DNA of 64,000 bases from Corynebacterium appendicis CIP 107643 (GTDB lineage Bacteria > Actinomycetota > Actinomycetes > Mycobacteriales > Mycobacteriaceae). This document shows positions 1,462 through 63,327 of this stretch, piece by piece (positions within the stretch are counted from its first letter, which is position 1; each line of letters starts with the position of its first letter). The position numbers and the translations under genes are program-made. The notes beneath the pieces are model-generated. The model worked only from the letters and a program-made list of their open reading frames with translations, made no database searches and was not told where the DNA came from. The stretch spans positions 124,001 to 188,000 of the forward strand of contig NZ_CP046976.1 of the NCBI RefSeq assembly GCF_030408415.1. The letters are read 5' to 3'.

Positions 1462-2364
1462 TCAGAGGGATTTGCGCGACAAGAAGAAGGTGGCCACGAA
1501 CATCGCCAGGACAGCCAGCGCCATCAGCACCCAGCCCCACACGGTGCTCACCGTGAATGTTTCGCCCAGCAGCGTCATGCCGAGCGAGTACGCGAGCAGC
1601 GGCTCGAAAATCTTCATCGCGGGCAGCGACTGCGACAAATTTCCGGCACTGAACGCGTACTGCTGCACGATTGTGCCGACTATAGCCGCGCCGAGCAGGG
1701 CGTACAGCGGCCACGTGGTCACCAGTTCGGGTACGCCGCCGCGCACGAACGCGTCAACCGTCGTCTTCGAGAACACCGCCAGGTAGCCGAAGATCGCGCC
1801 GCAGACCGCCCCCAGCAAAAACGCGCGCATGACGGATCTTTGCCGCCTCGCCGCTAGCACAGTCACGCCCATCACGACCACGCCCGCGCCCAGCGCGACA
1901 AGCCATTCGCTTATCGACGCCTCCCGCGCCCCCGGCTCCGGCCTGCCCAGCACCACCAGCACTCCCACCGCGACGGTGAGAATGGTGGCCCAGAACGTCT
2001 CGTCGATTTCCATTTTGCGCTGTTCCACGCGCGCCGACAGCACCAACGTCAGAAGCAGTGAAAGCACCAGGACCGGCTGCACCACCAACAGCGTTCCGAA
2101 GGCCAGCGCCACTGCCTGGAAGCCGTACGCCAGCCACGCCAGCGACAACGACAACCACCACGTCGGCCGCCTGATGGCCCCGATCGCCCCCGCCGAGCGC
2201 TGCCCGCCCGCTTCGTCCCGCTTCTCCCGCTTTTCCAGCTTTTCCTGCTGTTCAGCGTTGTAGCGCAGCACAATCTGGTGGCGCCACACGGTTCCGATCG
2301 CGATCGTCAGCGCAGAGGCGAACGCGAAGAAAACGGCGAGGGCATTGTTGTGCACCCGGTTCAT
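1462..2364 (-). CDS. DMT/EamA-like membrane transporter
   Basis: An integral membrane protein of about 300 residues with some nine to ten hydrophobic segments and a short charged cytoplasmic loop (QQEKLEKREKRDEAGG) after the first helix. The overall pattern, two halves of membrane helices with Pro/Gly-rich ends, fits the drug/metabolite transporter superfamily; the substrate cannot be read from the sequence. I chose the second Met (MNRVHNNALAVFF) because the 16 residues before it are Arg/Pro/Thr-rich and unlike a membrane N-terminus; no clear ribosome site is seen. It carries one copy of the repeated 11-mer (1909), read as ASIS in a loop. It follows leuA's control region divergently from the acetamidase gene. 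Confidence 0.75.
   Translation of the reverse strand: MNRVHNNALAVFFAFASALTIAIGTVWRHQIVLRYNAEQQEKLEKREKRDEAGGQRSAGAIGAIRRPTWWLSLSLAWLAYGFQAVALAFGTLLVVQPVLVLSLLLTLVLSARVEQRKMEIDETFWATILTVAVGVLVVLGRPEPGAREASISEWLVALGAGVVVMGVTVLAARRQRSVMRAFLLGAVCGAIFGYLAVFSKTTVDAFVRGGVPELVTTWPLYALLGAAIVGTIVQQYAFSAGNLSQSLPAMKIFEPLLAYSLGMTLLGETFTVSTVWGWVLMALAVLAMFVATFFLSRKSL
1909..1919 (-). repeat. CGTCGATAAGC repeat, copy 1
   Basis: Exact 11-mer on the minus strand, followed by G. It is preceded by a G-rich tract. Inside the DMT transporter gene, read as ASIS. Confidence 0.9.
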
Positions 2365-2478
2365 CGTAGTAGCTGGGGTGCACCCCGTTCGGTGCCCCGG
2401 CCGCACCCGCACCGGCGTGTTAAAGCGAGTACATCTACGGTGAAGGTAGTGGTGAGAACGTGATCAAGAGAGGAAACC

Positions 2479-8509: not shown

Positions 8510-8586
8510 ATCCAGCTATCTGGACCCAGCTAACCGGCTTGATAACGGTGAATAGCTGGATCCAAATAGCTGGATCTGGTTTTTGG
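8510..8586. terminator. Long hairpin between katA and mnhG, likely bidirectional terminator
   Basis: Arms 8510-8532 and 8553-8575 pair over 23 nt with two mismatches; the loop holds a further ACCG/CGGT stem. Each arm contains the unit TAGCTGGA or its complement twice. A T-rich stretch follows on the plus strand. On the minus strand it comes after the mnhG stop and the 11-mer repeat at 8605. Together with the katA terminator it accounts for the 312 nt without a gene; nothing else is seen there. Confidence 0.65.
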
Positions 8587-8604
8587 TGGGGTGGACGCGT
8601 TGGG

Positions 8605-8615
8605 CGTCGATAAGC
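8605..8615 (+). repeat. CGTCGATAAGC repeat, copy 2
   Basis: Exact 11-mer followed by G, with a G-rich tract before it. Intergenic: it ends 1 nt from the stop codon of mnhG (minus strand), so in the mnhG transcript the order is stop, GCUUAUCGAC, hairpin. Confidence 0.92.
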
Positions 8616-11660: not shown

Positions 11661-14605
11661 CGTGCGCCTCCGTTTTCCTTGTCGTTGGAGGGATTGCCGC
11701 GCGCACCGGAGATGATGGCGCGGGCGAGGTCCACCGGCTCGGATGCCGGGTTGATGGGCTGTGGGCGGGGGTCGACGGTCTGCTCGGAAGCGGCCGTGGT
11801 GGGGACATCTGGAAGAGGGTTCTCGTCGCTGCGGTGGTAGTCGAGCTGCTCGTGGTCCGCGCCGGGGCGCAGGTAGCCTCCCATGCCGTTAATAGCCATG
11901 GTGAGCATGCCGAGCACCGCGAGGTAGATTCCCGCGTCGAAAATAAGCGAGGTGGTCATGTGTTCCCCGGCGATCTCGCCGTGGATGGCGTAGAGGAACC
12001 CGCCCTCGATGAAGCCGATGAAGCCGGCTGTCAGCGCGACGATCACGCCGACGCCCGCGAGGTAGACCGGGGTCTTCTCGCCGACGGCGTTGTCGTCCGA
12101 GCCCTGCGACAGGTAGCTGAGAACGAATGCGGTGGCCATGACCAGCGCAGCGATGAAGCCGCCGCCCGGGACTGTGTGGCCGCGGAAGAAGATCAGCACG
12201 GACAGCACCACGAGGATCGGGACGATCAACTTCGTCACCTTGCGCAGCGGCAGGGTGTTCAGGCGGGACTGGCCGAACGGTGCGGGGCGAGTGCCCTCCT
12301 GGAAGTCGTGGCGCGGCACGGAGGTCGTCACGGCGGCGATGACCACGGCGGCCATGCCCAAAACGGAGAGCTCGCCCAAGGTATCGAAGCTACGGAACTC
12401 CACAAGAATCACCGCGACGATATTGTCGCCGCCGGTGAGCGGGCCCGTCTCGTTCAAGTACCACATGGCTAGCTCGGAACGGTCCTGCCGGCCGGTCAGG
12501 GCATAGACACCGGCAAAGGCCACGACACCCGCCACCACCGCGAAGATAGCCGACAAGGTCTTGCGGCGCTTCGACACATCCGGGAACAGACGCGGCTGGT
12601 AGCGCAGCACCATCATGATCACCACGACAGTGAGCGCTTCCACCGTGAACTGCGTCAGAGCCACGTCCGGAGCGCCGAGCAGCAGCATCTGCAGGCTCAC
12701 ACCGACACCGGTGGTGCCCAGCAGCAACGCCGCCGTCATGCGCTTGGTGGTTGCCATCATGCCCACCACCGACACGACGATGATGAGAAGTGGCAGGAGA
12801 TCCCAGTAATTGGTGAGGCCCTCGGTGCGCGGCGCCGGGACGACACCGTCCACACCGGTGGTGAAAAGCATCGTGGCCAAGCCCAGCGCCACAATGACGC
12901 CGACCGGCCACTTCAGGTGGCGCGACGGGTCGTAGGAATTAGCCATGGCACCGGCAGCGCGCCCGATATCCGTCGAGCCGTTGACGATCATGCGTAGGAT
13001 CTCGTTGCCGGTGTAGGGGAGAAGCATCTTGTTCTCCAGTGCCTTGTACACCGGCTTGCGCACAAAGATGAACGCGATGCCCGCGACCAAGACCAGCGCA
13101 GACACGATGAACGGCCATGTCACGCCATGCCAGAGAGCCAGGTGCGACTCAAACGAGGAGTCCCCGGTGATGGAGTGGACGGCGCGGGTGACGGGGGCGT
13201 CGATAAGCGGAAGCCCGAAGACGACCGGGACGGACAGAAGGCCCGGAATTGCTGCCGGCAGCCAGAGCGCGACGGGTGCTTCGTGGACGCCGCTCATGTC
13301 GCGCGTGCCGTCGATGAACGCGCCGAAGACGATCTTCGCGGAGTAGACGAAGGTCAAAAATGCCGCGAGGCCGGCGAGGACGAGCAGGGGGGCGCCGTAC
13401 TGCGTCGAGTGGAACGCCTCCAGGATCGACTCCTTAGACACGAAGCCGAACAGTGGCGGGACGGCGGCCATCGATGCCGCCGCGACGACGACCGACGCGA
13501 AAGTGAACGGCATCTTGTCGTAAATCTTGCCCAGGCGGCGGATGTCGCGGGTGCCCGTCTCGTGGTCGATCACGCCGATGAGCATGAACAAAGACGACTT
13601 GAATAGCGCGTGCGCCAACGTGTGCACGAGAGCCGCCGCAAACGCCGCTGGCGTGCCGACGCCCACCGCCGCCACGATCCAGCCCAAGTGCGACACCGTC
13701 GAGTACGCCGTGAGGTGCTTCAGGTCCGTCTTAGTGATGGCGAACACCGCCGACATCAGCGCCGTGCCCAGGCCGAACGCGACCAGAATGACATTCCACG
13801 TCGGGTTTAAGCCGAAGATGGCGGAGAAACGCAGAAGCAGGTAGACGCCCGCCTTGACCACCGCGGCCGCGTGCAGGAACGCGGAGACCGGCGTCGCCGC
13901 CGCCATTGCCTCCGGCAGCCAGAAGTGGAACGGGAACTGCGCGGCTTTGGTGAAGCCGGAGAACGCGATCAGCACGGCCACCGTCGTGGTCAGCCGCGGG
14001 TTGTCGGCCCACACGTCGGAGGTGAGAATGCCGTCGAGCTGCGTCGTACCGGCGCTCACCGCCGCGACCGCGAGGCCCGCCAGCAGGGTCAGTCCGCCGA
14101 AGAACGTCAGCGCGAGCGTGCGGAAAGAGCCCGCCTCGCCCGAGGAGCCTGAGCGCGCGATGAGCAGGAATGATGCGATGGACACGAGCTCCCAGCCGAT
14201 GAATAGCACGACGACGTCGCCCGCCGTCACGAGCAACAGCACGGACAGCGAGAACGCCGTCATGATCGTGTAGAAGCTCGTGTTGCCGTCGTTTTCCGGA
14301 AGGTACGCCGCGGAGTACAGCATCACCATGCCACCGATGCCGAGCGCGAGGAGCGCGAAGAACAGGCTCAGCCCGTCCGCGCGCATCCCGAGCTCCACGA
14401 CGGTGCCCGGCCCGAGCAGATCATTCGCCCAGGTAGTAGAGAAAGCTGGTGTCGCGCCGTCCCGCGCGGCGTTCGCGAGAATACCGGCCGCGACGAAGAA
14501 CACCGGCCCGATCACCCACCCCGCCCGGCGGTCAATTGCGCGCACCAACACGGGGGATAGCACCACGGTCGCGGCGACTAGCCCGAAGACCAAAAGAAGA
14601 GCCAT
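11657..14605 (-). CDS. mnhA: Mrp/Mnh antiporter fused subunit A/B
   Basis: A 982-residue polytopic protein. The N-terminal two thirds resemble NuoL (KAAQFPFHFWLPEAM, THALAHALFKSSLFM-like region), and the C-terminal third matches MnhB (GHTVPGGGFIAALVMATAFV), so A and B are one chain, as usual in actinobacteria. The complex exports Na+ or K+ against protons and supports pH and salt tolerance. I chose the ATG at 14603-14605, preceded by GGAG, because the preceding frame has no membrane character. It heads the six-gene minus-strand operon. One 11-mer copy (13198) is read as LID in a loop. Confidence 0.95.
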   Translation of the reverse strand: MALLLVFGLVAATVVLSPVLVRAIDRRAGWVIGPVFFVAAGILANAARDGATPAFSTTWANDLLGPGTVVELGMRADGLSLFFALLALGIGGMVMLYSAAYLPENDGNTSFYTIMTAFSLSVLLLVTAGDVVVLFIGWELVSIASFLLIARSGSSGEAGSFRTLALTFFGGLTLLAGLAVAAVSAGTTQLDGILTSDVWADNPRLTTTVAVLIAFSGFTKAAQFPFHFWLPEAMAAATPVSAFLHAAAVVKAGVYLLLRFSAIFGLNPTWNVILVAFGLGTALMSAVFAITKTDLKHLTAYSTVSHLGWIVAAVGVGTPAAFAAALVHTLAHALFKSSLFMLIGVIDHETGTRDIRRLGKIYDKMPFTFASVVVAAASMAAVPPLFGFVSKESILEAFHSTQYGAPLLVLAGLAAFLTFVYSAKIVFGAFIDGTRDMSGVHEAPVALWLPAAIPGLLSVPVVFGLPLIDAPVTRAVHSITGDSSFESHLALWHGVTWPFIVSALVLVAGIAFIFVRKPVYKALENKMLLPYTGNEILRMIVNGSTDIGRAAGAMANSYDPSRHLKWPVGVIVALGLATMLFTTGVDGVVPAPRTEGLTNYWDLLPLLIIVVSVVGMMATTKRMTAALLLGTTGVGVSLQMLLLGAPDVALTQFTVEALTVVVIMMVLRYQPRLFPDVSKRRKTLSAIFAVVAGVVAFAGVYALTGRQDRSELAMWYLNETGPLTGGDNIVAVILVEFRSFDTLGELSVLGMAAVVIAAVTTSVPRHDFQEGTRPAPFGQSRLNTLPLRKVTKLIVPILVVLSVLIFFRGHTVPGGGFIAALVMATAFVLSYLSQGSDDNAVGEKTPVYLAGVGVIVALTAGFIGFIEGGFLYAIHGEIAGEHMTTSLIFDAGIYLAVLGMLTMAINGMGGYLRPGADHEQLDYHRSDENPLPDVPTTAASEQTVDPRPQPINPASEPVDLARAIISGARGNPSNDKENGGAR
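13198..13208 (+). repeat. CGTCGATAAGC repeat, copy 3
   Basis: Exact 11-mer followed by G, after a G-rich tract. Within mnhA on its template side; read as LIDA. Confidence 0.9.
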
Positions 14606-14723: not shown

Positions 14724-16310
14724 ATGAAGTGGAACGCCATCACGCCTGTCGCCGCCCTTCTCGTTCTGGTCGCCGCAGCCTTCGCGCCCATGAACCCCGC
14801 CTCCACGTGGGTGCCGCGCGGCGCCGAGAGCGCCTCCGGCGCGCCCGCCGCCTACTCCGGCGCAGACAACTTCGTCGACGCCCGCCGCGCTGCCGGCGAC
14901 GCCAGCGCCCAAGCCGGCTTCCTCACCCAGGGCACGTCGAAGCTGAAAGACGGCACCGAAGAGCTTCGCGACGGCTCCACCGAACTCGCCGACGGCGTCT
15001 CCGCCGCCAAAGACGGCGCCGACGAGCTCTCCCAAGGCATGACCGAAATCCAGGCGGGCACGGGCCAGCTTGCCGACGGCGCCACCCGCCTCGCAGACAA
15101 CGTCGGTGGCGCCGTCGACCAAGTCGTCGGGTTCGACGCCATTCGCGGCCAAGTTCTCGCCGCCATCGACGACACGCTCGAAGGCACACGCGGTAGCAAC
15201 GACCCCGAGGTCAAGGATCTGCGCAGCCAGCTCGAGGACCTCCGCACACAGGTCGACACCGCCGAGCTGCCCGAAGACTGGACCAGCCAGCTCACCGAGC
15301 TCAAAGACGGCTCCCGCGAGCTCGCCAACCAACTCTCCACGCCCGGCTACGCCTACCACGACGGCATCTACTCCGCTACCAACGGCGCCGCCGACCTCGC
15401 CGAAGGGCTCGGCGACATGAACGACCGCGTCGGGGAAGCAAAGGACGGCGTCAACAAGCTTGCCGACGGCGCCGCCAAGGTCGACGACATGGCCACCAAC
15501 ACCAAGGACCGCATCGGCGATGTGCAGCGCGCGCTCCCCGCTGCCGCGCCGGTCGCAGGTGCTGCGAGCGGCTCAGCAGGAGGGGCTGGGGGAGCGGGTG
15601 CCACCGGCGAAGCGTCGATAAGCTCGTCGCTTCCTCCTCTCGCCGCGATGCTCGTGAGCGCCCTCGCCGTGCTCGGCGGCCTCGCCGCGGCCCTCGCCGC
15701 ATACGGCGTGACCCGCTCGCGGTGGAGCATTCTCGGCCTGGGCACGCTGCTCGCCGCCGGTGCCGGCACCATCCTGGTCACGATCCTCGGCACTGGCCTT
15801 ACTCCTCTTGCCATCGCCCTCACTGGGCTCGCGCTCGCACTGGGTTCTCTCGCGTCTGCCGGGATCACGTGGATCCTCCGCGACGCCTTCGGCGAGCTCG
15901 GCGGCACCGCCGCCGCGGGCATCTTCGCCCTCGCGCAGACCGGTGTCGTCGGCTGGGTCTGGTCCCACGCCGCCACCGGCGACGTCGACGGCATCGTCCG
16001 AGCCTTGTCGTCCGCCATGCCCATGCATTGGAGCACGTCCGCCATCTCCGCCGCCGGCAACAACGGCTCAACCACTGCCATGTGGACCGGCATCGGGCTG
16101 TCTGTGCTGCTCGCTGTGCTTGGGATCGTGGCGATGCGGGCGAGCCGCCCCTCCGCCGTCTCCGCGCTTGACGAGGCCGACTCTGACTACGGCTCCGATG
16201 ACGGCGACTACGGCGACGATCTCTACGTCGCCGACGGCGAAACCGTTTTCGACGACCGCGGCGACACTGCCGTCCTCGAGGCCGAGGACGTTATCGAACA
16301 CAAGCGCTAA
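14724..16310 (+). CDS. YhgE/Pip-like membrane protein with DG-repeat coiled region
   Basis: A 528-residue protein. After an N-terminal signal anchor (about 5-25) comes a long extracytoplasmic helical region with repeated units of the form LxDGxxxLxDG, as in YhgE/Pip phage-infection proteins and related ABC-type exporter partners. A Gly/Ala-rich linker (about 280-300) is followed by about six membrane helices and a strongly acidic tail. Function is unknown; YhgE relatives are linked to phage entry or export. The ATG lies 7 nt after TACATT, so the message is probably leaderless; an upstream extension of the frame overlaps mnhA and is rejected. The 11-mer at 15613 lies in the linker. Confidence 0.72.
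   Translation: MKWNAITPVAALLVLVAAAFAPMNPASTWVPRGAESASGAPAAYSGADNFVDARRAAGDASAQAGFLTQGTSKLKDGTEELRDGSTELADGVSAAKDGADELSQGMTEIQAGTGQLADGATRLADNVGGAVDQVVGFDAIRGQVLAAIDDTLEGTRGSNDPEVKDLRSQLEDLRTQVDTAELPEDWTSQLTELKDGSRELANQLSTPGYAYHDGIYSATNGAADLAEGLGDMNDRVGEAKDGVNKLADGAAKVDDMATNTKDRIGDVQRALPAAAPVAGAASGSAGGAGGAGATGEASISSSLPPLAAMLVSALAVLGGLAAALAAYGVTRSRWSILGLGTLLAAGAGTILVTILGTGLTPLAIALTGLALALGSLASAGITWILRDAFGELGGTAAAGIFALAQTGVVGWVWSHAATGDVDGIVRALSSAMPMHWSTSAISAAGNNGSTTAMWTGIGLSVLLAVLGIVAMRASRPSAVSALDEADSDYGSDDGDYGDDLYVADGETVFDDRGDTAVLEAEDVIEHKR
15613..15623 (+). repeat. CGTCGATAAGC repeat, copy 4
   Basis: Exact 11-mer followed by T, with a G-rich tract just upstream. In the Gly/Ala linker of the YhgE-like gene, read as ASIS. 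Confidence 0.9.
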
Positions 16311-18444: not shown

Positions 18445-18894
18445 ATGAGTGACTTGAAGAATCAGATCCGCGCTGACCTGAAGGAAGCAATGAAGGCGAA
18501 GGAGAAGGAGCGCACCGGCACGATCCGTATGCTTCTCGCCGCGATCCAGACGGAGGAGACGGAGGGGACGAAGCATGAGCTGACGGACGAGGAGGTGCTG
18601 AAGGTCGTCGCGCGCGAGATCAAGAAGCGCCGCGAGTCCGCTGAGGTGTACGCGGAAAACGGCCGCCAGGAACTCGCGGACGCCGAGCTAGCGGAGGTCG
18701 CGGTCCTCGAGGGGTACCAGCCAGAGCAGCTTGACGACGCCGAACTTGCCGAGCTTATCGACGCCGCCATCTCCGAAACCGGTGCCACCTCCATGAAGGA
18801 AATGGGACAGGTCATGAAGCTCGCCACCGAGAAGGCTGCTGGCCGCGCCGACGGCAAGCGATTGTCCGCCGCAGTGAAGGAGCGCCTCGGCTAA
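18445..18894 (+). CDS. GatB/YqeY domain protein
   Basis: A 149-residue helical protein of the YqeY family, related to the tRNA-binding tail domain of GatB. Conserved blocks: the N-terminal LKEAMKAKEKERTGTIRML, KKRRESAEVY and the GATSMKEMGQVMK segment. The cellular role of free YqeY proteins is not settled; binding to tRNA or amidotransferase complexes is inferred from GatB. The ATG follows TACGCT by 7 nt (leaderless). It converges with the PBP gene. One 11-mer copy at 18753 is read as LID. Confidence 0.9.
   Translation: MSDLKNQIRADLKEAMKAKEKERTGTIRMLLAAIQTEETEGTKHELTDEEVLKVVAREIKKRRESAEVYAENGRQELADAELAEVAVLEGYQPEQLDDAELAELIDAAISETGATSMKEMGQVMKLATEKAAGRADGKRLSAAVKERLG
18753..18763 (-). repeat. 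CGTCGATAAGC repeat, copy 5
   Basis: Exact 11-mer on the minus strand, followed by T; the upstream tract is only moderately G-rich. Within the YqeY gene, read as LIDA. Confidence 0.9.
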
Positions 18895-18919: not shown

Positions 18920-21313
18920 TTAGCTGAAGAGGTTCGCTAACTCGTCGGCGAGCTCTCCCAGATCGACTTCGTCGGAGGCGGGCTCTTCGTCCGCTGCGGA
19001 TGCCGAGGTGGTGGGGGAGGAGGAAGGGGTGGGGGGACGCGTCGATAAGCGTGCTCTTGAGCCGTCCGACACGACGAGCGTGACTGTCGAACCCGGGCCC
19101 CCGTCCTCCGACGCGCGCGTGTCGACGACCTCGTCGCGCGGCGCATTCTTTTTCGACGTCGTCGTCTCGCGGACACGGAACCCGGCGTTTTCGAGCATCG
19201 CGCGAGCCTCGTCCTTATTCATCCCCACAGCGCGCTTGAGCAGCTCATTGCGCGCCTTCGGATCGAACAACGGACTCGGATCCGGAAGTCCCGCGTCCTG
19301 CGCACCCGGAATCCGGTTCGCCATCCGGAACCACGAATGCGCCGCCTCCTGGCCGCCGAACAGCGACCCGTTCGAACACTGACGAACAGGGCCCGTGCAC
19401 AGCGGAGTCGTCTGCGTGCCGTCGTTGTAGATGTACGTGGCTGCCGCGACCTTCTTGTTGAACCCGAGGAACGCCGAGGACTGGTGCGACTCCGTCGTGC
19501 CTGTCTTTGCCGCGACCGCGCCGCGCCATCTCGTCGCATCCGCGGCCTTCTTCGCGGTGCCCGACACTGCGTCCTCCGCCATGCCCCCCGCGAGCCCGGC
19601 CGCGAGCTCCGGCTCCACTGCCTGCTCGCAATCCGGGCGGTCGATGGCCACCTCGTCGCCGTAACGGTCCACGACGCTCTTGATCGGGTTCGGCTCGCAC
19701 CACATGCCGTCGGACGCGAGCGTGGCCGCCACGTTGGACAGCTCCAGCGGATTCACCGCCGTCGGGCCCAGCGTGAACGAGCCCAAGTTGTTCTGGCGGA
19801 AGTAGTCCGCGACCGAATTGTCTCCGTCGAATGTGCCCTGGTCCTCGTAGGAGCGCAGGCCGAGGCGCACCGCCATATCGACAGTCGGCTCCACGCCCAC
19901 GCTCTCGATCAGCTTTACGAACGGCGTGTTCGGCGACTTCGCCAACGCCTCGCGCATCGTCATCTCGCCCGGGTACTTGCCGGCGTTTTCCACGCAGTAC
20001 GCCCCCGCCGGGCAATTGCGCGCGCCGCCCTCGCCCATGCCGTAGACCACCGCGCGGTCCGGCACCTCGAGTTTCGACTCCAAGTTGTAGCCGTTTTCCA
20101 GTGCCGCGGCCGCCGTGAAGATCTTGAACACCGAGCCCGCGCCGTTGCCCACCATCGAGGATGTCTGCGGCAGCACCGTCTGGCTCTCGTCCTGGTCCAA
20201 GCCGTAGTCTCGCGAGGACGTCATCGCGAGGATGTCGTGGCTCTCCTGGCCCGGCTGGATGACGTTGATGACTTCCGCGACTCCCGGCTGGCCCTTGCTC
20301 ACCGCGCTCGTCGCCGCTTCGTGGGCGATCTGCTGCACCTCGGGGTCGAGTGTCGTCGTGATGGTGTAGCCGCCGCGCTCGACCTCCTCCATACTCAGAC
20401 CCTTTTCCGAGAGGTAGCGGAGAGCGTAATCGCACAAGAAGCCGGAGCCGCCTGCGGTGATGCAGCCGCGGGGCAAAAGCGACGGCTCGTCGAGAATGCC
20501 CAGCGGCTCGCCGGCGTAGTTGTCGGCGTCGGCCTGGCTCAGGTAGCCCGATCCCACCATCGCCTGCAGCACCGTGTTGCGTCGCTCCTTCGCGCCGTCC
20601 GGGTTCGTGTACGGATTCAGCATCTCCGACGACTGCAGCATGCCGACCAGCAGCGCCGATTGCGGCACCGTCAGCTCCGCCGCCGACGTGTCGAAATACG
20701 TGCGCGCCGCCGCCTCGATGCCGTAGGCGTGGTTGCCGAAAGACACCAGATTCAAATACCGCGCCAGAATCTCTTCTTTTGAGAGCTGCTTGTCCAGGTC
20801 TGAGGCCATGCGCATTTCGCGCAGTTTGCGCGGGATGGATTGCTCCACAGCAGCCGACTGCTCTTCGGTCGTGTCGGCGTTGACCAGCAGCAGGTAGTTT
20901 TTCACGTACTGCTGGTCGATCGTGGACGCGCCTTCCTCCACGCCGCCGGCGAGAAGATTCGTCACCATTGCGCGGGCGAAGCCTTGCATGTCGACGCCGT
21001 CGTGCTCGTAGAACCTGCGGTCCTCAATTGCGACCAGAGCGTCCTTCGCGGACTGGGCGATCTCGTCGGGCTCCACCTCGTAGCGGCGTTGCGCGTACAC
21101 CCACGCCATCGGGTCGCCGTTGGTGTCGGTGATCGTCGTGACTCCTGGCGCGGTGCCGTCGGTGAGGTCGGCGAGATTGGACTGCATGGTGTCGTCGACA
21201 CGCGTTACCGCAGCCCCGCCGATACCCGCCGCGGGGGCGAGGCACAGCGCGATGCCGAGGCCCGCTGCCAACAGGCCGACGAGCAGTTTTCCCAGGGAAT
21301 TTAGCGCAGACAC
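18920..21313 (-). CDS. ponA2: Bifunctional penicillin-binding protein with PASTA domain
   Basis: A class A PBP of 797 residues that polymerises and cross-links peptidoglycan outside the membrane. It has an N-terminal signal anchor (about 9-36), a GT51 domain with the catalytic Glu in EDRRF (residue 97), a transpeptidase domain with SVFK, SPN and KTGT motifs, one PASTA domain near residues 690-750, and a Ser/Thr/Pro-rich acidic tail. Position next to whiB4-like and metallophosphoesterase genes matches ponA2 (Rv3682). The 11-mer at 19040 falls exactly in the low-complexity tail after PASTA. Confidence 0.94.
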   Translation of the reverse strand: MSALNSLGKLLVGLLAAGLGIALCLAPAAGIGGAAVTRVDDTMQSNLADLTDGTAPGVTTITDTNGDPMAWVYAQRRYEVEPDEIAQSAKDALVAIEDRRFYEHDGVDMQGFARAMVTNLLAGGVEEGASTIDQQYVKNYLLLVNADTTEEQSAAVEQSIPRKLREMRMASDLDKQLSKEEILARYLNLVSFGNHAYGIEAAARTYFDTSAAELTVPQSALLVGMLQSSEMLNPYTNPDGAKERRNTVLQAMVGSGYLSQADADNYAGEPLGILDEPSLLPRGCITAGGSGFLCDYALRYLSEKGLSMEEVERGGYTITTTLDPEVQQIAHEAATSAVSKGQPGVAEVINVIQPGQESHDILAMTSSRDYGLDQDESQTVLPQTSSMVGNGAGSVFKIFTAAAALENGYNLESKLEVPDRAVVYGMGEGGARNCPAGAYCVENAGKYPGEMTMREALAKSPNTPFVKLIESVGVEPTVDMAVRLGLRSYEDQGTFDGDNSVADYFRQNNLGSFTLGPTAVNPLELSNVAATLASDGMWCEPNPIKSVVDRYGDEVAIDRPDCEQAVEPELAAGLAGGMAEDAVSGTAKKAADATRWRGAVAAKTGTTESHQSSAFLGFNKKVAAATYIYNDGTQTTPLCTGPVRQCSNGSLFGGQEAAHSWFRMANRIPGAQDAGLPDPSPLFDPKARNELLKRAVGMNKDEARAMLENAGFRVRETTTSKKNAPRDEVVDTRASEDGGPGSTVTLVVSDGSRARLSTRPPTPSSSPTTSASAADEEPASDEVDLGELADELANLFS
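19040..19050 (+). repeat. CGTCGATAAGC repeat, copy 6
   Basis: Exact 11-mer followed by G, after a very G-rich tract (18995-19038). In the PBP tail region, read as LST. Confidence 0.92.
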
Positions 21314-23414: not shown

Positions 23415-23425
23415 GCTTATCGACG
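23415..23425 (-). repeat. CGTCGATAAGC repeat, copy 7
   Basis: Exact 11-mer on the minus strand, followed by G. It lies 9 nt after the MBL stop and 13 nt before a terminator hairpin. Confidence 0.92.
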
Positions 23426-23438
23426 GTCGCCGTCACCC

Positions 23439-23467
23439 CAACGGGCCCCTTTCTCCAGGGCCCGTTG
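23439..23467 (+). terminator. Terminator after MBL gene
   Basis: Perfect 10-bp stem: CAACGGGCCC (23439-23448) and GGGCCCGTTG (23458-23467), 9-nt loop. The following sequence is only weakly T-rich. Confidence 0.75.
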
Positions 23468-23746: not shown

Positions 23747-24820
23747 CTATTTCCCGAACAATAGGTGCATTGCACCGTATTGGTGGGTGGTGTTCGGTAC
23801 TGGTGTTCCGCGCGGGGAGACCCATGTCGGGGTGCCGTTGCGGATGTGTATTCGGCCCCGGTGGTGTCTGTGGGGGTCGTCGTCGTTGGTGCGGTTGTGG
23901 TACCTGCACAACACCGACAGGTTGTCCATGTTCGTCGGCCCGCCACGCGCCCACGGTGTGATGTGGTGGACCTCGCAATTATCCGCCGCATGCCGGCAAT
24001 CCGGCACCGGACACGTCGTCAACGTCGCACGGGCCAGGTCGCGTTGCTTGGCGTTGGCGAACCGCTTCGCGTGGTACAGGTTCACTGCACCTGCCTGCGG
24101 GTGGAACAACGCCACCTCCAAATCCTTCGAGTAATAGTGAGTCAGATACTCCGCACCAGTCATGGTGGTGCCGTCCGACAACCCCAGGATCGTCTCATCC
24201 CCCTCGCCTGCGAGGATCCTGATGTGCTCGGAAAGCGGGACCTGGATCAACGGGCGCGGCACAGCCTGCGCGACCCCGGCACCGCCGCGCAGCAACTCCG
24301 CGAACGCCTCATACATCTGCGGGCCCTCAGGCCGGTTGGGGTCGAGCTTTACCCGCAGGGCGTGTTCCAGGTCGGCGATGTCGCGTTCGGCGCCGGTGGC
24401 GATGACCGTGCGTTTGCCTTTCCGCGTCCGGCCAAACCGGACCGTGGACTCCGGGGCGGGTTTATCGGCGTCCGGGTCGGGGATGATGTCTTTGGCGTGG
24501 CGCTGCAGCGTCTTGTAGTCGCCGCGCACCGACAACAACGCCAGGCGGAGCTTCCACGTCTCCCGGTCGGAAGAGACAGCTTTGAGGTGTTGTTCGATGA
24601 ATACCAGTTGGTCCAACGATTTCGCTGTTTGCCGGGCAACGGTGACAGCGTTGGCTTGCTGGCGGGAAAACCGGGTTTTTCCGTAGTAGGTGTCGAAGAC
24701 GCCTTTCCATTCGGCAACGCGGGTGGGGTTGGCGCCGGCGTCGATAAGCTGCTGGGCGTTGAAGCTGCCCAGCATGTCGATGGCGTTGCCTGCGCCCACG
24801 AGCGCCGCGAATTGGTTCAT
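23747..24820 (-). CDS. DUF222/HNH endonuclease family protein (13E12-repeat type)
   Basis: A protein of about 357 residues. The N-terminal two thirds are the helical DUF222 region; the C-terminus has the HNH nuclease signature: CPVPDC, then CEVHHITPWARGGPTNMDNLSVLCRYHN, with paired Cys for structural zinc and the catalytic His. Such genes occur in many copies in actinobacteria (13E12 repeats of mycobacteria) and are thought to be mobile or remnants of mobile DNA. It separates two genes that are neighbours in M. tuberculosis (Rv3677c and Rv3676), which supports insertion. I chose the Met of MNQFAALVGAGN; the 23 residues before it are not family-like. Confidence 0.88.
   Translation of the reverse strand: MNQFAALVGAGNAIDMLGSFNAQQLIDAGANPTRVAEWKGVFDTYYGKTRFSRQQANAVTVARQTAKSLDQLVFIEQHLKAVSSDRETWKLRLALLSVRGDYKTLQRHAKDIIPDPDADKPAPESTVRFGRTRKGKRTVIATGAERDIADLEHALRVKLDPNRPEGPQMYEAFAELLRGGAGVAQAVPRPLIQVPLSEHIRILAGEGDETILGLSDGTTMTGAEYLTHYYSKDLEVALFHPQAGAVNLYHAKRFANAKQRDLARATLTTCPVPDCRHAADNCEVHHITPWARGGPTNMDNLSVLCRYHNRTNDDDPHRHHRGRIHIRNGTPTWVSPRGTPVPNTTHQYGAMHLLFGK
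24739..24749 (+). repeat. CGTCGATAAGC repeat, copy 8
   Basis: Exact 11-mer followed by T, with a G-rich tract upstream. Inside the HNH gene, read as LIDA; so the inserted gene also carries the repeat. Confidence 0.9.
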
Positions 24821-24959: not shown

Positions 24960-24999
24960 CGAAAATCCCGCCGCTCGCCGGTGAGAGGGGAGGGCGGGA
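24960..24999 (-). terminator. Terminator after glxR
   Basis: On the minus strand TCCCGCC (24993-24999) pairs with GGCGGGA (24966-24972), followed by TTTTCGC. The 11-mer repeat sits between the glxR stop and this hairpin. Confidence 0.6.
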
Positions 25000-25010
25000 C
25001 GTCGATAAGC
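25000..25010 (+). repeat. CGTCGATAAGC repeat, copy 9
   Basis: Exact 11-mer followed by G, after a G-rich tract. Intergenic, 1 nt from the glxR stop; in the glxR transcript the order is stop, GCUUAUCGAC, C-rich, hairpin. Confidence 0.92.
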
Positions 25011-40364: not shown

Positions 40365-40470
40365 AGCTTTCCGTCCTTCCTTTTCCGCCTCGGCGCATCC
40401 GGTGTGCCGGAGATGCGGCCTCTTGCGAAAGTGTAGTGGGGCGGGAGGGGTTGGGGGTGGGCGGTGTTAA

Positions 40471-40481
40471 CGTCGATAAGC
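40471..40481 (+). repeat. CGTCGATAAGC repeat, copy 17
   Basis: Exact 11-mer followed by G, after a very G-rich tract (40438-40465). Intergenic, between the divergent dedA-like gene and topA; the only intergenic copy not behind a stop codon. Confidence 0.93.
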
Positions 40482-47307: not shown

Positions 47308-48969
47308 CTAGTCGTCGCGGCGGGACTCGGGCAGGAACCGCGGCATCACCTTGCCGGTGGGGTTGCGGGGCAGGAAGTCGACGAAGTTGACGTCGCGGGG
47401 GATGGAGTGGTGTGCGAGTTTGTCGCGGACCCAGTCGCGGATGGCGTCGGCGGTGAGGCTGCGGCCGGCCTCGTCGTCGGAGCGGACGACCCAGACGGCG
47501 ATGCGCTTGAAGGTCTCGTCGTCGTCCACGCCGCCGGAATAGACGTCGGCGACACCGGGCATCGGTTCGAGGGTCTCGGTGACGGACTGGGGGTGGACGT
47601 TCTCGCCGCCGATGATGATCATGTCGTCGTTGCGGCCGAGAACGTGGAGGCGCCCGAGTTCGTCGAAGTAGCCGCGGTCGCCCATTTCGATCAGGCCGTC
47701 GATCATGACCAGGGGAGTATCCGGGTTGGAGTAGCCTTTCAGGGCGGTCTCGTTGTTGAGGAAGATGCGGCCGGGTTGGCCTTGGGGGACTTCGTTGCCG
47801 GAGTCGTCATAAAGCTTGATTGTGCTGCCGGGCACGACACGGCCCGCGGCGGTGGGGTGCGCGACGATATCGTCGGCAGTGGCCACGGTGGCGAGCGAGA
47901 GTTCGGTGGAGCCGTAAATATTCGCCAGGATGGGGCCGAAGCGTTCGTGGACGCGCGCGACGACATCGGGGGTCAGTGCGTTGCCGGACGAGGCGATCCA
48001 CTTGAGCGTCGAGGTGTCCCACTGCTCGTTGTCGGGCAGATCGAGCATCTGCTTGTAGAAGATCGGGGAGGAAATCAGCCCGTCGACGCGGAAATCCTGG
48101 ATCTGCTTCATCGCGGTCGCGGGGTCGAATTCGCGTTGCGTGACGATCGTGGAGCGCGAGCCCAGCCCCACGAGCAGCGTCGCCCAGCCCCACGTGTGGA
48201 ACATCGACGCAGATTGCAGCACCGTCTGGTTCGCGTACCACGGCACGGCGGATAGCAGCCCGGTCAGCACGAACGGCATCTTCGGCTCGGTGCGCAGAAT
48301 GCCCTTCGGCACGCCGGTCGTGCCCGACGACATCAGCACGATGTCGCCTTGGGTCGGCAGGAGCGGAAGTTTCGGGAGGGCGGCATCAGAAGCAAGCAGC
48401 TTATCGACGCTACCCTCACCTTCCCCTCCATACCCCCACACCACAGCCACACCGTCCATGGCCGGGTGCTCGGCCGGGATGCGGTCGGCGAATTTGGCGT
48501 CGACGAACAGGACGTTGATGCCGTTTTCCTCGATGCAGCCCGCGAGCTGCTCCGGGGAGGACCCAATATTGAGCAGGAATGCCGCGCCGCCGGCGTAGCT
48601 CTTCGCCGCGAACGGGATGACGAAGTGGCGGCCGTTGCGCGCCATGATGCCGATGCGCAGCTCCTGCAGGCCGGCGTCGCGCTTGTGCTTGAGCAGCCAC
48701 TGCGCCATTTTGCGGGAGGCGTCGCGAAGCTGCTGGTAGGTGAGGAGGCCGGAGTCGTCGATGAGCGCGGTGCGTTCCGGGCAGGAACGTGCGCCTTGCT
48801 CAACCTCGCGGGCGGCGGTGATGCCCCAGCGCGGCAGGTCGCCGAAGCCGCGGAAGAAGACACCCGGGCCGCCCTCAGAGCTGACGATGCGGCGCCGCAC
48901 GATTAGCGACATTAGCTCTGCGAAAGCGCCGACGCGCTGGATGGGGGAGTAGCTGCTTTGGTTCACCAT
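47308..48969 (-). CDS. Fatty-acid--CoA/AMP ligase (FadD family)
   Basis: A 553-residue adenylate-forming enzyme. AMP-binding motif LMSSGTTGVPKGI, then NIYGSTELS, DRGYFDELGRLHVLGRNDDMIIIGGENV and the catalytic Lys in PRNPTGKVMPR. It activates a fatty or related acid; with DUF4442 next to it, acyl-CoA turnover is likely. The 11-mer at 48399 lies in a Gly/Glu-rich loop before the AMP motif (GGEGEGSVDKLLASD), a segment that looks like an insertion. Confidence 0.92.
   Translation of the reverse strand: MVNQSSYSPIQRVGAFAELMSLIVRRRIVSSEGGPGVFFRGFGDLPRWGITAAREVEQGARSCPERTALIDDSGLLTYQQLRDASRKMAQWLLKHKRDAGLQELRIGIMARNGRHFVIPFAAKSYAGGAAFLLNIGSSPEQLAGCIEENGINVLFVDAKFADRIPAEHPAMDGVAVVWGYGGEGEGSVDKLLASDAALPKLPLLPTQGDIVLMSSGTTGVPKGILRTEPKMPFVLTGLLSAVPWYANQTVLQSASMFHTWGWATLLVGLGSRSTIVTQREFDPATAMKQIQDFRVDGLISSPIFYKQMLDLPDNEQWDTSTLKWIASSGNALTPDVVARVHERFGPILANIYGSTELSLATVATADDIVAHPTAAGRVVPGSTIKLYDDSGNEVPQGQPGRIFLNNETALKGYSNPDTPLVMIDGLIEMGDRGYFDELGRLHVLGRNDDMIIIGGENVHPQSVTETLEPMPGVADVYSGGVDDDETFKRIAVWVVRSDDEAGRSLTADAIRDWVRDKLAHHSIPRDVNFVDFLPRNPTGKVMPRFLPESRRDD
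48399..48409 (-). repeat. CGTCGATAAGC repeat, copy 19
   Basis: Exact 11-mer on the minus strand, after a strong G-rich tract. The following 12 nt (TGCTTGCTTCTG) match those of copy 22 with one change. In the fadD-like gene, read as VDKL. Confidence 0.92.
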
Positions 48970-50173: not shown

Positions 50174-51289
50174 ATGACGAATAACGAGCAGCAGACCGAG
50201 CAAACAGTCAAGGGCGTCATCGCGCGAGAGAAGGGCGCGGACGTGGAGATCGCGGACATCGTGATCCCCGCTCCGGGCCCGAACGATGTCGTGGTCAAGG
50301 TACAGGCCACCGGCGTGTGCCACACGGACCTCGCGTACCGCGACGGTGATATCGAGGACGCATACCCGTTCCTCCTCGGCCACGAGACGGCCGGTGTCGT
50401 CGAGACCGTCGGCGCAGACGTCACCCACGTCGAGCCGGGCGACTTCGTCGTGCTCAACTGGCGCGCAGTGTGCGGCGAATGCCGCGCGTGCCGCAAGGGC
50501 GACACGAAGAATTGCTTCAACACCCACAACGCATCGAAGGGCATGACGCTTACCGACGGCACCGAGCTCACCCCCGCCCTCGGCATCGGATCATTCGCCG
50601 AGAAGACCCTCGTGCACGAAATGCAGTGCACCAAAGTGAACCCGGATGAGGACCCGGCTGCCGCAGGTCTTCTCGGCTGTGGGATCATGGCCGGCCTCGG
50701 TGCCGCGGTGAACACCGGTGAGGTGCAGCGCGGAGAAACCGTCGCTGTCTTCGGCTTGGGCGGAGTCGGCCTGGCAGCCGTCGCAGGAGCGGCGTTGGCG
50801 GGGGCGGTGAAGGTGATCGCGGTGGACGTCGATAAGCGAAAGTGCGATGCCGCCGCGAAATTCGGCGCGACCGACGCTATCTGCAGCAAAGACATGAGCG
50901 AAGGTGAGGTCATCGACCGCGTCCGCGAGCTCACCGGCGGCTTCGGCCCCGACGTGACCATCGATGCCGTCGGCATCCAGCCCACCTGGCGCCAGGCGTT
51001 CTACTCCCGCGACCTCGCCGGACGCATGGTCATGGTCGGCGTGCCCAACCAGACCGACCACGTGGACATCCCCGCCATCGACCTCTACGCCCGCGGCGGC
51101 TCCATCAAACCCGCCTGGTACGGCGACTGCCTGCCGGAACGCGATTTCCCCACCTACGTCGACCTTCACCTGGACGGGCGGTTCCCGCTCGGCGAATTCG
51201 TCTCTGAGCGCATCGGCCTCGGCGATATCGAAGGCGCATTCACCAAGATGAAGCAGGGCGACGTGCTGCGCTCTGTCGTGGAATTTTAA
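50174..51289 (+). CDS. mscR: S-(hydroxymethyl)mycothiol dehydrogenase / class III-like alcohol dehydrogenase
   Basis: A 371-residue zinc-dependent dehydrogenase that oxidises the formaldehyde-mycothiol adduct (and S-nitrosomycothiol) with NAD. Catalytic zinc ligands in GVCHTD and GHE; structural zinc Cys set in [18 protein letters not shown] fold [10 protein letters not shown], followed by the Asp of VDVDKRK. The 11-mer at 50827 falls exactly on that VDVDKRK stretch. Start ATG 7 nt after TACGCT (leaderless). An MBL enzyme follows, as in M. tuberculosis (Rv2259-Rv2260). Confidence 0.94.
50827..50837 (+). repeat. CGTCGATAAGC repeat, copy 20
   Basis: Exact 11-mer followed by G; G-rich upstream. 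In mscR at the end of the second NAD-fold strand, read as VDKR; here the residues themselves are functional. Confidence 0.9.
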
Positions 51290-51960: not shown

Positions 51961-51999
51961 CCGCCCCCCCTCTCCTCCAGCGAGAGGAGAGGGGGGCGG
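51961..51999. terminator. GC-rich hairpin between convergent genes
   Basis: About 16 bp of stem with one bulged C, from CCGCCCCCCC on the left to GGGGGGCGG on the right, 4-6 nt loop, no U-run. It can end transcription from both sides. The 11-mer lies between it and the stop of the DsbA-like gene. Confidence 0.65.
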
Positions 52000-52008
52000 C
52001 AGGGGGAT

Positions 52009-52019
52009 CGTCGATAAGC
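52009..52019 (+). repeat. CGTCGATAAGC repeat, copy 21
   Basis: Exact 11-mer followed by G, after a G-rich tract that is also the right arm of the hairpin. Intergenic, 3 nt from the stop of the DsbA-like gene on the minus strand. Confidence 0.93.
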
Positions 52020-54023: not shown

Positions 54024-54890
54024 CTAGTCCCCGCGGTGGAACAGCCGCGAGTACACGCGCCGCATCACACCCAAGGGAAGCGCGCGGTACAGATTGCGCG
54101 CCACATAATTCGCCGCAGCACGCGGGCGCGAGACCAGCCCGTAGCTTACGAGCGCGCGCTGCATGGCGCGCTCCGCACGCCGGGTTTCGGGCGTTGTGCG
54201 GCGTTTCATCTGGGCGTCGCCCACACGGAAGTAGGTCAGTGGTTCCGGCAGGTTGTGCAGCTTCTTCCCGCCGGCGATGAGGCGCGCCCACAGGTCGTAG
54301 TCCTCCATGTTGTGCATGGGGCGGTAGCCGCCGACCTTGCGCACGTCGGCTGTGCGCATGAGCACGGACGGGTGGTTCAGCGGTGAGTTGATTGTCGCGT
54401 ACCGCGCGATCGCGTCGTGGGTTTCGGGCAGCCGCCGGACGCTACCGAGGGTGTCGCCGTCGAATTCCTGCATGGCGGTGCCCACCACCGCGATCTCGGG
54501 GTGCGCGGCCATGAACGCGAGCTGTTTTTCCAGGCGCTCGGGATACGCGGCGTCGTCGGAGTCGAGGCGCGCCACGAATTCGGTGTCCACTTCCGCCAAG
54601 CCTTCGCGCAACGCGGTGCCGAGCCCCCGGTTTTCAGGCAACGTCACGGTGTCCACAGAAGCAAGAAGCTTATCGACGTCCCCTCCCACCGGCCCGTCCC
54701 TTACCACCAGCACCCGCTCCGGCGGACGTGTTTGGGCCTCGATGCTGTCCAAGGCGTGCTTGAGTTGTTCTGCCGTGGTGTTGCGGTAGACCGACATGAG
54801 GACGGTGACCGCGCCGGGACGCAGATCGGGTTGCGGCTCGGGTCTCTGGCCGGGGCCCTGGGCGGGGCGAAAGTCGGGTGTGCTGGTCAT
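54024..54890 (-). CDS. GT2 family glycosyltransferase
   Basis: A 288-residue GT-A enzyme with [10 protein letters not shown], the metal motif [16 protein letters not shown] and a [18 protein letters not shown] block typical of rhamnosyl and galactosyl transferases. Acceptor unknown; with rmlABCD beside it, a rhamnosyltransferase is plausible. A Pro/Gln-rich N-terminus precedes the fold. The ATG overlaps the rmlA stop (ATGA). The 11-mer at 54668 sits in a variable loop ([12 protein letters not shown]). Confidence 0.88.
54668..54678 (-). repeat. CGTCGATAAGC repeat, copy 22
   Basis: Exact 11-mer on the minus strand after a G-rich tract; followed by TTCTTGCTTCTG, shared with copy 19 except for one base. 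In a GT2 gene, read as VDKL. Confidence 0.92.
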
Positions 54891-57115: not shown

Positions 57116-59352
<2,237 letters not shown>

Positions 59353-61295: not shown

Positions 61296-61335
61296 GGTGG
61301 AGTCTTTCCCGTGGAGTAACTGGAGACTTGAGACA

Positions 61336-63327
61336 TCAGTCGGAAGCTTGATGCGGAGAGTTCCCGATTTGTTTTTCAAGCCATGTGTAGATGAGCGATT
61401 CCACCCGCGCCACCTGCTGGTTGTCGGCTGCTCCAGCGTGACCACCGGCGGTGTTCTCGAAGTAATCGACCGGTTGCCCGGCCTTCGCAATGGCGAGAGC
61501 GAACGCGCGGGCATGGGCTGGGTGGACGCGGTCGTCGCGGGTGGATGTGGTCACCAACGCCGGCGGATACGCAGGCGAGGAAGTGACATTGTGGAGTGGC
61601 GACCACGTCTCAATCGCCGCACGTTCCCCCGGCGTGTCTGGGTCCCCGTACTCTGCTATCCAGGACGCTCCAGCCAATAGCGTGTGATAGCGCAGCATGT
61701 CGGTCAACGGCACCTGAATCACGGCCGCGCCGAACAGGTGCGGATACTGCACCAGCGCTCCCGAGGTCAGAAGGCCGCCATTGGAGCCGCCTCGGATCGC
61801 TAGCCGCTCCGGCGTGGAATAACCGCGGGCGACAACGTCTTCGAGCACCGCCCGGTGGTCCTCCCACACCTTGTGCCGGTTGGTCTTGACCACCTGCGAG
61901 TGCCACTCCGGGCCGAACTCTCCGCCACCGCGCAGGTTGGGCTGGACAAAGTAGTAGCCATTCTCCAACCAGGAGATTCCGCGAACGGCGGAGTATCCTG
62001 GGGTGAGCGACACCTCGAAGCCGCCGTATCCGCCGACCAACGTCGGTTGCGGGCCACGGGAGAAATCGCCCGTGATGAAGTAGGGGATCTTTGTTCCGTC
62101 GGAGGAGACGGCCCAGTGTTGGCGGGTTTGAAGGCCGGGAGCATCGAAAAGCGCGGGTGCTTGGCGCACCACCTCACCGTCACGAAGCAGGGTCGAAGGG
62201 GTGGTGAACGACGACACGTTAATCCAAGTCTCGTCGCCGTCGAGTGGGCTTGTGGCCACGACTGACGCCGTCGCGGCGTCTGGGAGTTCAACTTCGGAAC
62301 GATCCCAGGTACCCAACTCGAAGCGGACTATGCGCGTGACCACGTCGTCCAGCACAGTCAACAAGAGGGTTGTCGCAGTGATGGAGAGGTCTTCAATGGG
62401 GAGGTCGTCGATAAGCGTGCGCATGTTGCGCTCACCCGCGAGGAAGCGCTCCAGCTCGATCACTGCGAGCGCACCCGCGGGCACTCCTGCGAACTCGGTG
62501 CGGGGGAGCAGGAACAGCCATTGCTTGTGGGGGACGACGATGCAATCCTCGGGGACGTCCACAGGGGTGTCGCCGATGAACGTCTTCGCGGTGTAGAAGT
62601 CCAGGGCGCGCTCGAATATCACGCGCTCGTAGCCCGGGGTGTGGTCCACGCGGGCGCCGACGGCGACATCGCTGCGCTTGCCGCGGAACACCACCGGGGC
62701 ATCCTCGATGGCGGTTCCGCGGGACCATTCGCGTACTTCAACGGGGTAGCCGGACTGCGTCACTGACCCGGCGCCAAGATCGGTGCCTACCAGCAGTGTG
62801 TCGCGGTCCAGCCAGCTCACGTCGGATTTCGCTTCTGGGAGCGTGAAACTTTCGTTGCGGGCTTCGTTGAGGAATGTTCGTGAGTCGATGTCGAATTCAC
62901 GCACCACTACTGCGTCCGCGCCGCCGCGGGAGAGCCGGATCAGCGCCCGGTCGTTCGCAATGGGCCTGACCACAGCGCCTTTCCACACCCAGTCCTCGTC
63001 TTCGTCGCGGGCGAGCTTATCGACGTCTACCAGTACCTCCCACTCATCATGGCCCTCCTCATAACTCTCGGGGGTGGTGCGGCGCCATATTCCCCGCGGG
63101 TGCTCGCGGTCGCGCCAAACGTTGTAGAGGAAACCGCCGCGCCGGGTGACGTACGGGATCTTGTCATCAGTGTCCAAAGCATCCCGGATCCTCGCTGCGA
63201 GCTGCTTGTCCTGAAAGTTTGCCTCCGTCCGATCCGACCACGCACCCGCCCACGCCAACGCTTTCTCGCCTGTGATGTGGTCCAGTTCTGTTGGGTCGAT
63301 AGACAGATCGGGGGCGTTAGAGGTCAT
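61336..63327 (-). CDS. Prolyl oligopeptidase family serine peptidase (S9A)
   Basis: A 663-residue peptidase with an N-terminal beta-propeller and a C-terminal alpha/beta hydrolase. The nucleophile is Ser515 in GGSNGG; the acid is in STRDDRVHP and the His in GGHAGAAD near the end. It cleaves short peptides after proline. There is no signal peptide, so it acts in the cytoplasm. Two 11-mer copies are present in propeller loops (62406, 63015). Confidence 0.93.
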   Translation of the reverse strand: MTSNAPDLSIDPTELDHITGEKALAWAGAWSDRTEANFQDKQLAARIRDALDTDDKIPYVTRRGGFLYNVWRDREHPRGIWRRTTPESYEEGHDEWEVLVDVDKLARDEDEDWVWKGAVVRPIANDRALIRLSRGGADAVVVREFDIDSRTFLNEARNESFTLPEAKSDVSWLDRDTLLVGTDLGAGSVTQSGYPVEVREWSRGTAIEDAPVVFRGKRSDVAVGARVDHTPGYERVIFERALDFYTAKTFIGDTPVDVPEDCIVVPHKQWLFLLPRTEFAGVPAGALAVIELERFLAGERNMRTLIDDLPIEDLSITATTLLLTVLDDVVTRIVRFELGTWDRSEVELPDAATASVVATSPLDGDETWINVSSFTTPSTLLRDGEVVRQAPALFDAPGLQTRQHWAVSSDGTKIPYFITGDFSRGPQPTLVGGYGGFEVSLTPGYSAVRGISWLENGYYFVQPNLRGGGEFGPEWHSQVVKTNRHKVWEDHRAVLEDVVARGYSTPERLAIRGGSNGGLLTSGALVQYPHLFGAAVIQVPLTDMLRYHTLLAGASWIAEYGDPDTPGERAAIETWSPLHNVTSSPAYPPALVTTSTRDDRVHPAHARAFALAIAKAGQPVDYFENTAGGHAGAADNQQVARVESLIYTWLEKQIGNSPHQASD
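62406..62416 (+). repeat. CGTCGATAAGC repeat, copy 24
   Basis: Exact 11-mer followed by GTGCGC (as in copy 12), with a short G-rich stretch upstream. In the peptidase gene, read as LIDD. Confidence 0.9.
63015..63025 (-). repeat. CGTCGATAAGC repeat, copy 25
   Basis: Exact 11-mer on the minus strand, followed by T; moderately G-rich upstream. In the peptidase gene, read as VDKL. Confidence 0.9.

Follow-up and report, generated by a model that had tools for sequence, protein, structure and literature searches.

The stretch of Corynebacterium appendicis CIP 107643 DNA considered here (the window: 64,000 nucleotides, positions 124001-188000 of a genome that forms one contig of 2,284,440 bases) contains the 11-mer CGTCGATAAGC 25 times, which raises the question of what a word repeated so often might be for. 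By analogy with known uptake sequences, we judge, with a probability of roughly 0.6, that it forms the core of a signal for DNA uptake (self-recognition) in natural transformation. An exact-word search returned 13 copies on the plus and 12 on the minus strand between positions 1909 and 63025, the same numbers as a preliminary description of the window had given. In 100 dinucleotide shuffles of the window the mean was 0.07 copies and the largest number 1. C preceded all 25 copies and the next base was G (14), T (10) or C (1), again as described before; the accompanying statement that A never follows was a small-sample effect, with A following 17% of 119 copies. The perfect identity of the 25 copies is due to the search for an exact word; the actual element varies in its middle and extends further upstream.

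A polar element of about 43 bp

In the whole 2.28-Mb genome, CGTCGATAAGC occurred 585 times (282 plus, 303 minus) and the reversed word once. The study sample, composed of the window and 40 stretches of 20 kb distributed along the chromosome (864 kb), contained 218 copies (106 plus, 112 minus), more than of any other 11-mer. Markov models of order 3, 4 and 5 predicted 0.8, 3.1 and 15.3 copies, respectively. Counts over the genome and against Markov models, proposed earlier as a check, showed enrichment, and strong over-representation genome-wide and on both strands, as looked for in an uptake sequence, was found. The copies were spread fairly evenly, with a mean of 4.8 and a variance of 6.7 per 20 kb among the 40 stretches.

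Upstream of the word lay a tract with a strand-specific composition. In the 864-kb sample, the 33 bases upstream had a G fraction of 0.52, 0.49 and 0.50 in sense, antisense and intergenic copies, respectively, and a C fraction of 0.16, 0.20 and 0.17, compared with 0.32 to 0.34 for both bases at random gene positions. G exceeded C in these bases in 209 of 217 copies. The difference was about zero beyond the tract upstream, and downstream a small G excess was limited to the first few bases. A two-level model placed the upstream edge at -32 (217 copies), and in 300 bootstraps the 5th, 50th and 95th percentiles all fell at -32. The same edge was obtained in G058 (n = 20; G and L numbers are our own handles for genomes and loci), in named species (n = 96) and in the G012 set (n = 32), and an edge of -35 in near relatives (n = 56). 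Outside the core, the copies shared composition only. G-quadruplexes were rejected as the main explanation, since at least four runs of three Gs were present in only 12 of 217 tracts.

The middle dinucleotide of the core was tolerant, with AT favoured in this genome. The frame CRTCGNNAAGC occurred 528 times in 864 kb (about 40 expected) and 1387 times genome-wide, about once per 1.6 kb, against 118 for the reversed frame. In each of the 16 commonest spellings of the frame, G exceeded C within the tract by 0.09 to 0.36, and farther out the two bases hardly differed. The element is a polar unit of about 43 bp, consisting of about 32 nt that are G-rich and C-poor on the motif strand, followed by CGTCG-NN-AAGC. 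Neither the G-rich tract nor the tolerant dinucleotide had been noticed in the preliminary description. Eleven further sites of the form CGTCGA(C/G/A)AAGC were seen in the window (6124, 7620, 9822, 10573, 31125, 42873, 45733, 45883, 51526, 56227 and 59799). In the 864-kb sample such variants carry the G tract, and the eleven sites are likely to be weaker versions of the element.

Placement in genes, replichores and mobile DNA

Genes were called with our own simple finder. The called genes contained 181 of the 218 copies, and 182 were predicted from the coding fraction of 0.836 (p = 0.86). Promoter-type sites were rejected, most copies being inside genes. The genic copies were in sense (60) or antisense (121) orientation and in several reading frames; the peptide readings VDK, LST, SIS and LID reported for the window fit the counted frames, and five more copies were in a further frame. 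The tract was alike in sense, antisense and intergenic copies, and the constraint therefore acts on DNA. A simple codon effect, named in the preliminary description as something that would overturn its reading, is excluded by the several frames and the intergenic copies, and its proposal of selection on DNA rather than protein held. Constraint at the DNA level, independent of frame and transcription, is what is expected of an uptake sequence. A genome-wide DNA-level signal is firmly supported.

Transcription terminators or Rho-loading (Rho utilization, rut) sites would be in keeping with the complement of the word, which reads GCTTATCGACG and continues into a C-rich, G-poor stretch. The window copies at 8605, 23415, 25000 and 52009 sit 1 to 9 nt past called stops, and among genic copies the coding strand carries the complement twice as often as the word. 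Copies are nevertheless found within genes as often as chance predicts, in both orientations and with the same tract. Terminators were rejected because this differs from a downstream sense placement, and we consider either kind of site very improbable.

With the terminus placed from GC skew at 1.20, 1.25 or 1.30 Mb, the leading strand carried 108, 110 or 110 of the 218 copies (p = 0.95 for 110), and replication-oriented signals were rejected on this ground. The case previously made against polar signals of the Chi or FtsK orienting polar sequence (KOPS) type was thus borne out by a replichore test. KOPS and architecture imparting sequences (AIMS) resemble the element in being genome-wide polar words; unlike them, it is not oriented towards the terminus. 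Stretch L046 (G000:C1:1724001-1744000) had a GC skew of -0.12, far under that of neighbouring stretches, and a normal motif density (6 copies).

Only two of the 40 stretches were free of copies (L034 and L038; G000:C1:524001-544000 and 924001-944000). The ten proteins scanned in them were four Mutator-type transposases, one integrase-core transposase, two P-type ATPases, a copper-resistance protein, a permease and a dehydrogenase. These two stretches are the basis for the absence of the word from mobile DNA.

Next after uptake we ranked a Chi-like recombination-control site, read single-stranded by a helicase-nuclease other than RecBCD, such as AdnAB. The element is polar, frequent and over-represented like the Chi sites of RecBCD and AddAB, and it is missing from the two stretches rich in mobile genes. 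Its G-rich tract of 32 nt is on the 5' side of the core, which is the side on which RecA, by the RecBCD mechanism, would load onto the surviving strand. Chi sites typically show a leading-strand excess, which the element lacks; moreover, 11 nt and a tract are long for a Chi, and dialects and absences inside one genus, described below, also speak against this role. RecC (PF04257), the RecBCD subunit that recognises Chi, was found in none of 80 Corynebacterium genomes, in a search in which E. coli alone was positive among 14 controls and which did not include AddAB and AdnAB. A Chi-like role is unlikely in our view. One paper cites a 2003 title linking the stability of Corynebacterium genomes to a lack of recombinational repair (PMC1193525).

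Turnover and dialects within Corynebacterium

In three relatives with 84%, 82% and 77% identity over the aligned window, the site was intact in 11 of 25, 15 of 24 aligned and 6 of 17 aligned cases, respectively. By our arithmetic, about 14%, 12% and 5% of sites would have stayed intact under independent drift. The corresponding regions of the relatives, 70 kb each, contained 22, 20 and 20 copies. Sites are thus preserved beyond drift, yet they turn over at similar density; a random lack of sites in close relatives, which would have counted against the preliminary description, was looked for and not seen. Among the 34 aligned sites that were not intact, 25 aligned gap-free within the 11-mer. 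On these alignments, dispersed mobile repeats of the repetitive extragenic palindromic or miniature inverted-repeat transposable element type were rejected as the main explanation. Their high copy number would fit, but most copies of the word are within called genes and share only composition outside the core, and we regard such repeats as the least probable of the explanations weighed here.

The word CGTCGATAAGC is one of three dialect words, D1, the others being CATCGGCAAGC (D2) and CGTCGTAAAGC (D3). Among 242 Corynebacterium genomes, D1 was present in at least 20 copies in 165 (up to 782) and in at most 13 copies in 77, and no genome had 14-19. Loci of 23 kb from two further carriers, C. 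glaucum (L181) and C. lubricantis (L180), had 5 and 4 copies, respectively. D2 was the commonest excess word in the sampled stretches of the D1-poor genome G001 and reached 133 to 478 copies in 14 of the 242 genomes. Its copies have the tract too (G 0.48 and C 0.22 in G001, n = 17; 0.51 and 0.21 in G096, n = 22). D1 and D2 were nearly exclusive: genomes with at least 20 D1 held at most 25 D2, and D2-rich genomes held at most 13 D1, with the exception of G023, which holds both (45 D1, 210 D2). D3 was counted in 61 of the 242 genomes, C. appendicis being the only D1- or D2-rich genome among them; six had 42 to 235 copies, and C. appendicis had 28. The D3 genomes lack both D1 and D2. The frame CRTCGNNAAGC was counted in 57 of the 242 genomes and in two of other genera, and was in excess with other middles in G053 (577 against 57 reversed) and G188 (1120 against 87).

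Altogether, 186 of the 242 genomes have some dialect, 51 show none, with the frame reaching no more than about three times its reversed count, and five are unassigned (G027, G031, G127, G156 and G185, with 29 to 37 D2 copies). Related dialects in, or absence from, related species are again as expected of uptake sequences. Sampling of D1-poor relatives (20 to 104 kb each) brought out D2 and D3 and no clear further dialect. G001 also contained CATCGATAAGC (7 copies) and CATCGACAAGC (6 copies) in 100 kb, which is a plausible path between dialects. Other words were seen in two genomes. The motif-less relative G028 (L084, L085 and L130; 44 kb in all) had 13 copies of CCCCTGGTATA and 12 of TGGTATACTCC, with 0.01 expected for each, a different repeat. 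G011 (L078, L079 and L128; 44 kb in all) had 5 copies of CGCGGCGTCAT (0.10 expected) and 4 of CGCGACGTCAT (0.04 expected), which may belong to an unrelated signal or represent a word of another type.

Outside the genus, D1 showed no excess in 149 genomes that represent 30 further genera of the family (0 to 7 copies). In a class sample of 197 genomes, the frame was at most about 2.6 times the control in the 196 besides C. appendicis, against 11.8 times in C. appendicis. In the samples searched, the element is restricted to Corynebacterium. A tree was built by a quick method from a single gene adjoining tad, with the label 'absent' for named species taken from loci of 9-23 kb unless a whole-genome count exists. 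In this tree, D3 formed its own clade and D2 was placed inside a clade that also holds D1 species. One large group, to which C. kalidii, C. jeikeium and C. dentalis belong, contained absences, and others were scattered over the rest of the tree, among them G042, G113, G207, G231 and G232.

This distribution bears on two further explanations. A binding site of a chromosome-organising or nucleoid-associated protein would suit the fairly even spread within the genome and the neutrality towards genes. Against it, copy numbers are uneven across species (0 to 782), a housekeeping factor would not be expected to show near-exclusive dialects and repeated absences, and polarity without replication orientation would have no obvious use. 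We consider such a site improbable. Patchy presence and dialects would suit a variable system, such as a defence or restriction system that uses the element as a self-marking or modification site. Restriction sites are, however, normally avoided and not enriched, and an element of about 43 bp with a tolerant middle also argues against this possibility, to which we give even less weight.

Analogy with uptake sequences and candidate machinery

We judged an uptake signal most likely because no genome-wide word known to us other than uptake sequences unites an equal use of both strands, no regard for gene ends, dialects that vary around fixed positions, genomes without the word, and turnover at similar density. 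The fit to uptake sequences proposed in the preliminary description therefore stands as the best one by analogy, taking together strands, genic and intergenic copies, dialects, absences, turnover and the mobile-rich stretches; uptake itself, a receptor, and a drive spreading copies are what we infer from it. The uptake signal sequence of Pasteurellaceae consists of a core and, downstream of it, T-rich flanks whose composition extends over a few helical turns. The Corynebacterium element is alike in its core with extended flank, genus-wide spread and subtypes, and it differs in that the flank is G-rich, strand-asymmetric and upstream. The DNA uptake sequence of Neisseriaceae (PMC3630211) is likewise a short over-represented word with dialects that vary at few positions around fixed ones and are conserved within a species; genomes with none occur, and one genome has two dialects, comparable to G023. 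Compared with that account, the Corynebacterium element has the core CRTCGNNAAGC, fewer copies (585 exact; 1387 in frame), the upstream G tract and an actinobacterial host. Uptake sequences with dialects of the Neisseria type are a better match for the element than Chi, KOPS, terminators or regulatory sites.

Uptake machinery was found in the host genus, but also in motif-less species. The comEC gene was present in 241 of 242 genomes and comEA in all 80 searched. TadA was found in 236 of 242; the six assemblies in which it was missed are fragmented or incomplete. Such a gene set allows for uptake. Micrococcus luteus, an actinobacterium with comEA and comEC homologs, requires a Flp pilus for transformation (PMC6370729). 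In 30 loci of carriers and non-carriers, TadA, TadB, TadC and Flp lay together beside the same helicase gene, and TadZ-, TadE- or TadF-like genes were undetected in some of these loci. The weaker TadA scores of many motif-less species appear to follow phylogeny: the eight such loci examined keep the tad genes in the same place. The ComEA match (L075:9033-9662 and its relatives) was in one piece (SLBB next to HhH) in many carriers. In D3 and many motif-less species it fell into two or more pieces, in the latter often separated by a longer linker, and there were exceptions on both sides. The split was dropped as a predictor, since it was seen in some carriers too. The searches for comEC, TadA and comEA gave no ComP-like receptor candidate, and no genome-wide co-occurrence search was made. 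Stop codons inside comEC (G123) or comEA (G007 and G165) were found, among the matches listed, only in motif-less genomes; they are few, and alignment overrun is possible.

The window itself contains a tad/Flp pilus locus (Table 1), whose link to the motif is hypothetical. Its products matched the Pfam families T2SSE, T2SSF (twice) and DUF4244, with no match for the TadZ- and TadE-like proteins. The names TadZ, TadE and TadF are assigned tentatively from gene order, not from a Pfam match. For the product of topA, which contains one copy of the word, the nearest named relative among the matches listed was Corynebacterium sp. Marseille-P3884 (94%; the protein's own record was possibly excluded).

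Table 1. Copies of the element in the window, each spanning the exact 11-mer and the 32-nt upstream tract with its length taken from the edge model, and the tad/Flp locus (window positions).
Feature	Span	Strand	11-mer	Context
Copy 1	1909..1951	-	1909-1919	
Copy 2	8573..8615	+	8605-8615	intergenic, 1 nt past stop of called minus-strand gene 8617-8964
Copy 3	13166..13208	+	13198-13208	
Copy 4	15581..15623	+	15613-15623	
Copy 5	18753..18795	-	18753-18763	
Copy 6	19008..19050	+	19040-19050	
Copy 7	23415..23457	-	23415-23425	intergenic
Copy 8	24707..24749	+	24739-24749	
Copy 9	24968..25010	+	25000-25010	intergenic
Copy 10	28513..28555	-	28513-28523	
Copy 11	29235..29277	-	29235-29245	
Copy 12	29356..29398	+	29388-29398	
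Copy 13	33606..33648	+	33638-33648	within tadA
Copy 14	35963..36005	-	35963-35973	within tadE-like gene
Copy 15	39194..39236	+	39226-39236	
Copy 16	39643..39685	-	39643-39653	intergenic
Copy 17	40439..40481	+	40471-40481	intergenic
Copy 18	41262..41304	-	41262-41272	within topA
Copy 19	48399..48441	-	48399-48409	
Copy 20	50795..50837	+	50827-50837	
Copy 21	51977..52019	+	52009-52019	intergenic
Copy 22	54668..54710	-	54668-54678	
Copy 23	57904..57946	-	57904-57914	
Copy 24	62374..62416	+	62406-62416	
Copy 25	63015..63057	-	63015-63025	
tad/Flp pilus locus	32009..36673	+		TadZ-like, TadA, TadB, TadC, Flp-type DUF4244 pilin, TadE-like, TadF-like; candidate uptake pilus

If the element is an uptake signal, a surface or envelope receptor, perhaps a pilin of the tad/Flp pilus or a partner of ComEA, would bind the duplex of about 43 bp, recognizing CGTCG-NN-AAGC with its species-tuned middle and about three helical turns of the upstream G-strand. 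Since such a receptor would bind a species-tuned element, DNA of the same or related species would be taken up preferentially, enter via ComEA/ComEC and then be recombined. Biased uptake and recombination would keep copies dispersed over the core chromosome.

Several points weigh against an uptake signal. The genes comEC, comEA and TadA do not discriminate, because they are also present in species without the motif; they do not predict it, and no gene tracking its presence was found. The two-to-one antisense bias of genic copies has no explanation in hand, codon constraint being our guess. Young islands would lack any slowly evolving genome-wide DNA signal as well. The tract edge was less clear in D2 (-26, n = 28, 5-95% -35 to -24), and the tract was weak in D3 (edge -11, n = 11) and in G009 (edge -47, n = 25). 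We know of no uptake sequence with a G-rich tract of about 32 nt, and we noticed no demonstration of competence in Corynebacterium in the part of the open-access literature covered. Nor was a report of the motif noticed in the covered part of the open PubMed Central literature, text matches for TCGATAAGC not included; the Corynebacterium motif pairs found there are derived from clustered regularly interspaced short palindromic repeats (PMC5217627).

Even if uptake is the wrong explanation, a reader protein is needed for an element that is spread genome-wide, comes in dialects and has a tract of about 32 nt. We see about even odds that much of Corynebacterium has sequence-specific transformation, in which the dialects would act as a sexual-isolation code and a putative receptor would read the approximately 43 bp as a core and a strand-specific G tract. 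To our knowledge, word-guided uptake occurs only in Neisseriaceae and Pasteurellaceae, both Gram-negative. If the uptake reading is true, the element would be the first dialect-bearing uptake signal known to us in Gram-positives and the first such system in a Gram-positive, mycolic-acid lineage, with a new way of reading self-DNA, and the trait would have evolved again independently, in Actinobacteria. Natural competence would be implied in a genus not known to us for it. Gene flow and species barriers would become testable in skin, nasal, food and industrial corynebacteria, and the element would provide a simple design rule for transforming harmless laboratory strains.

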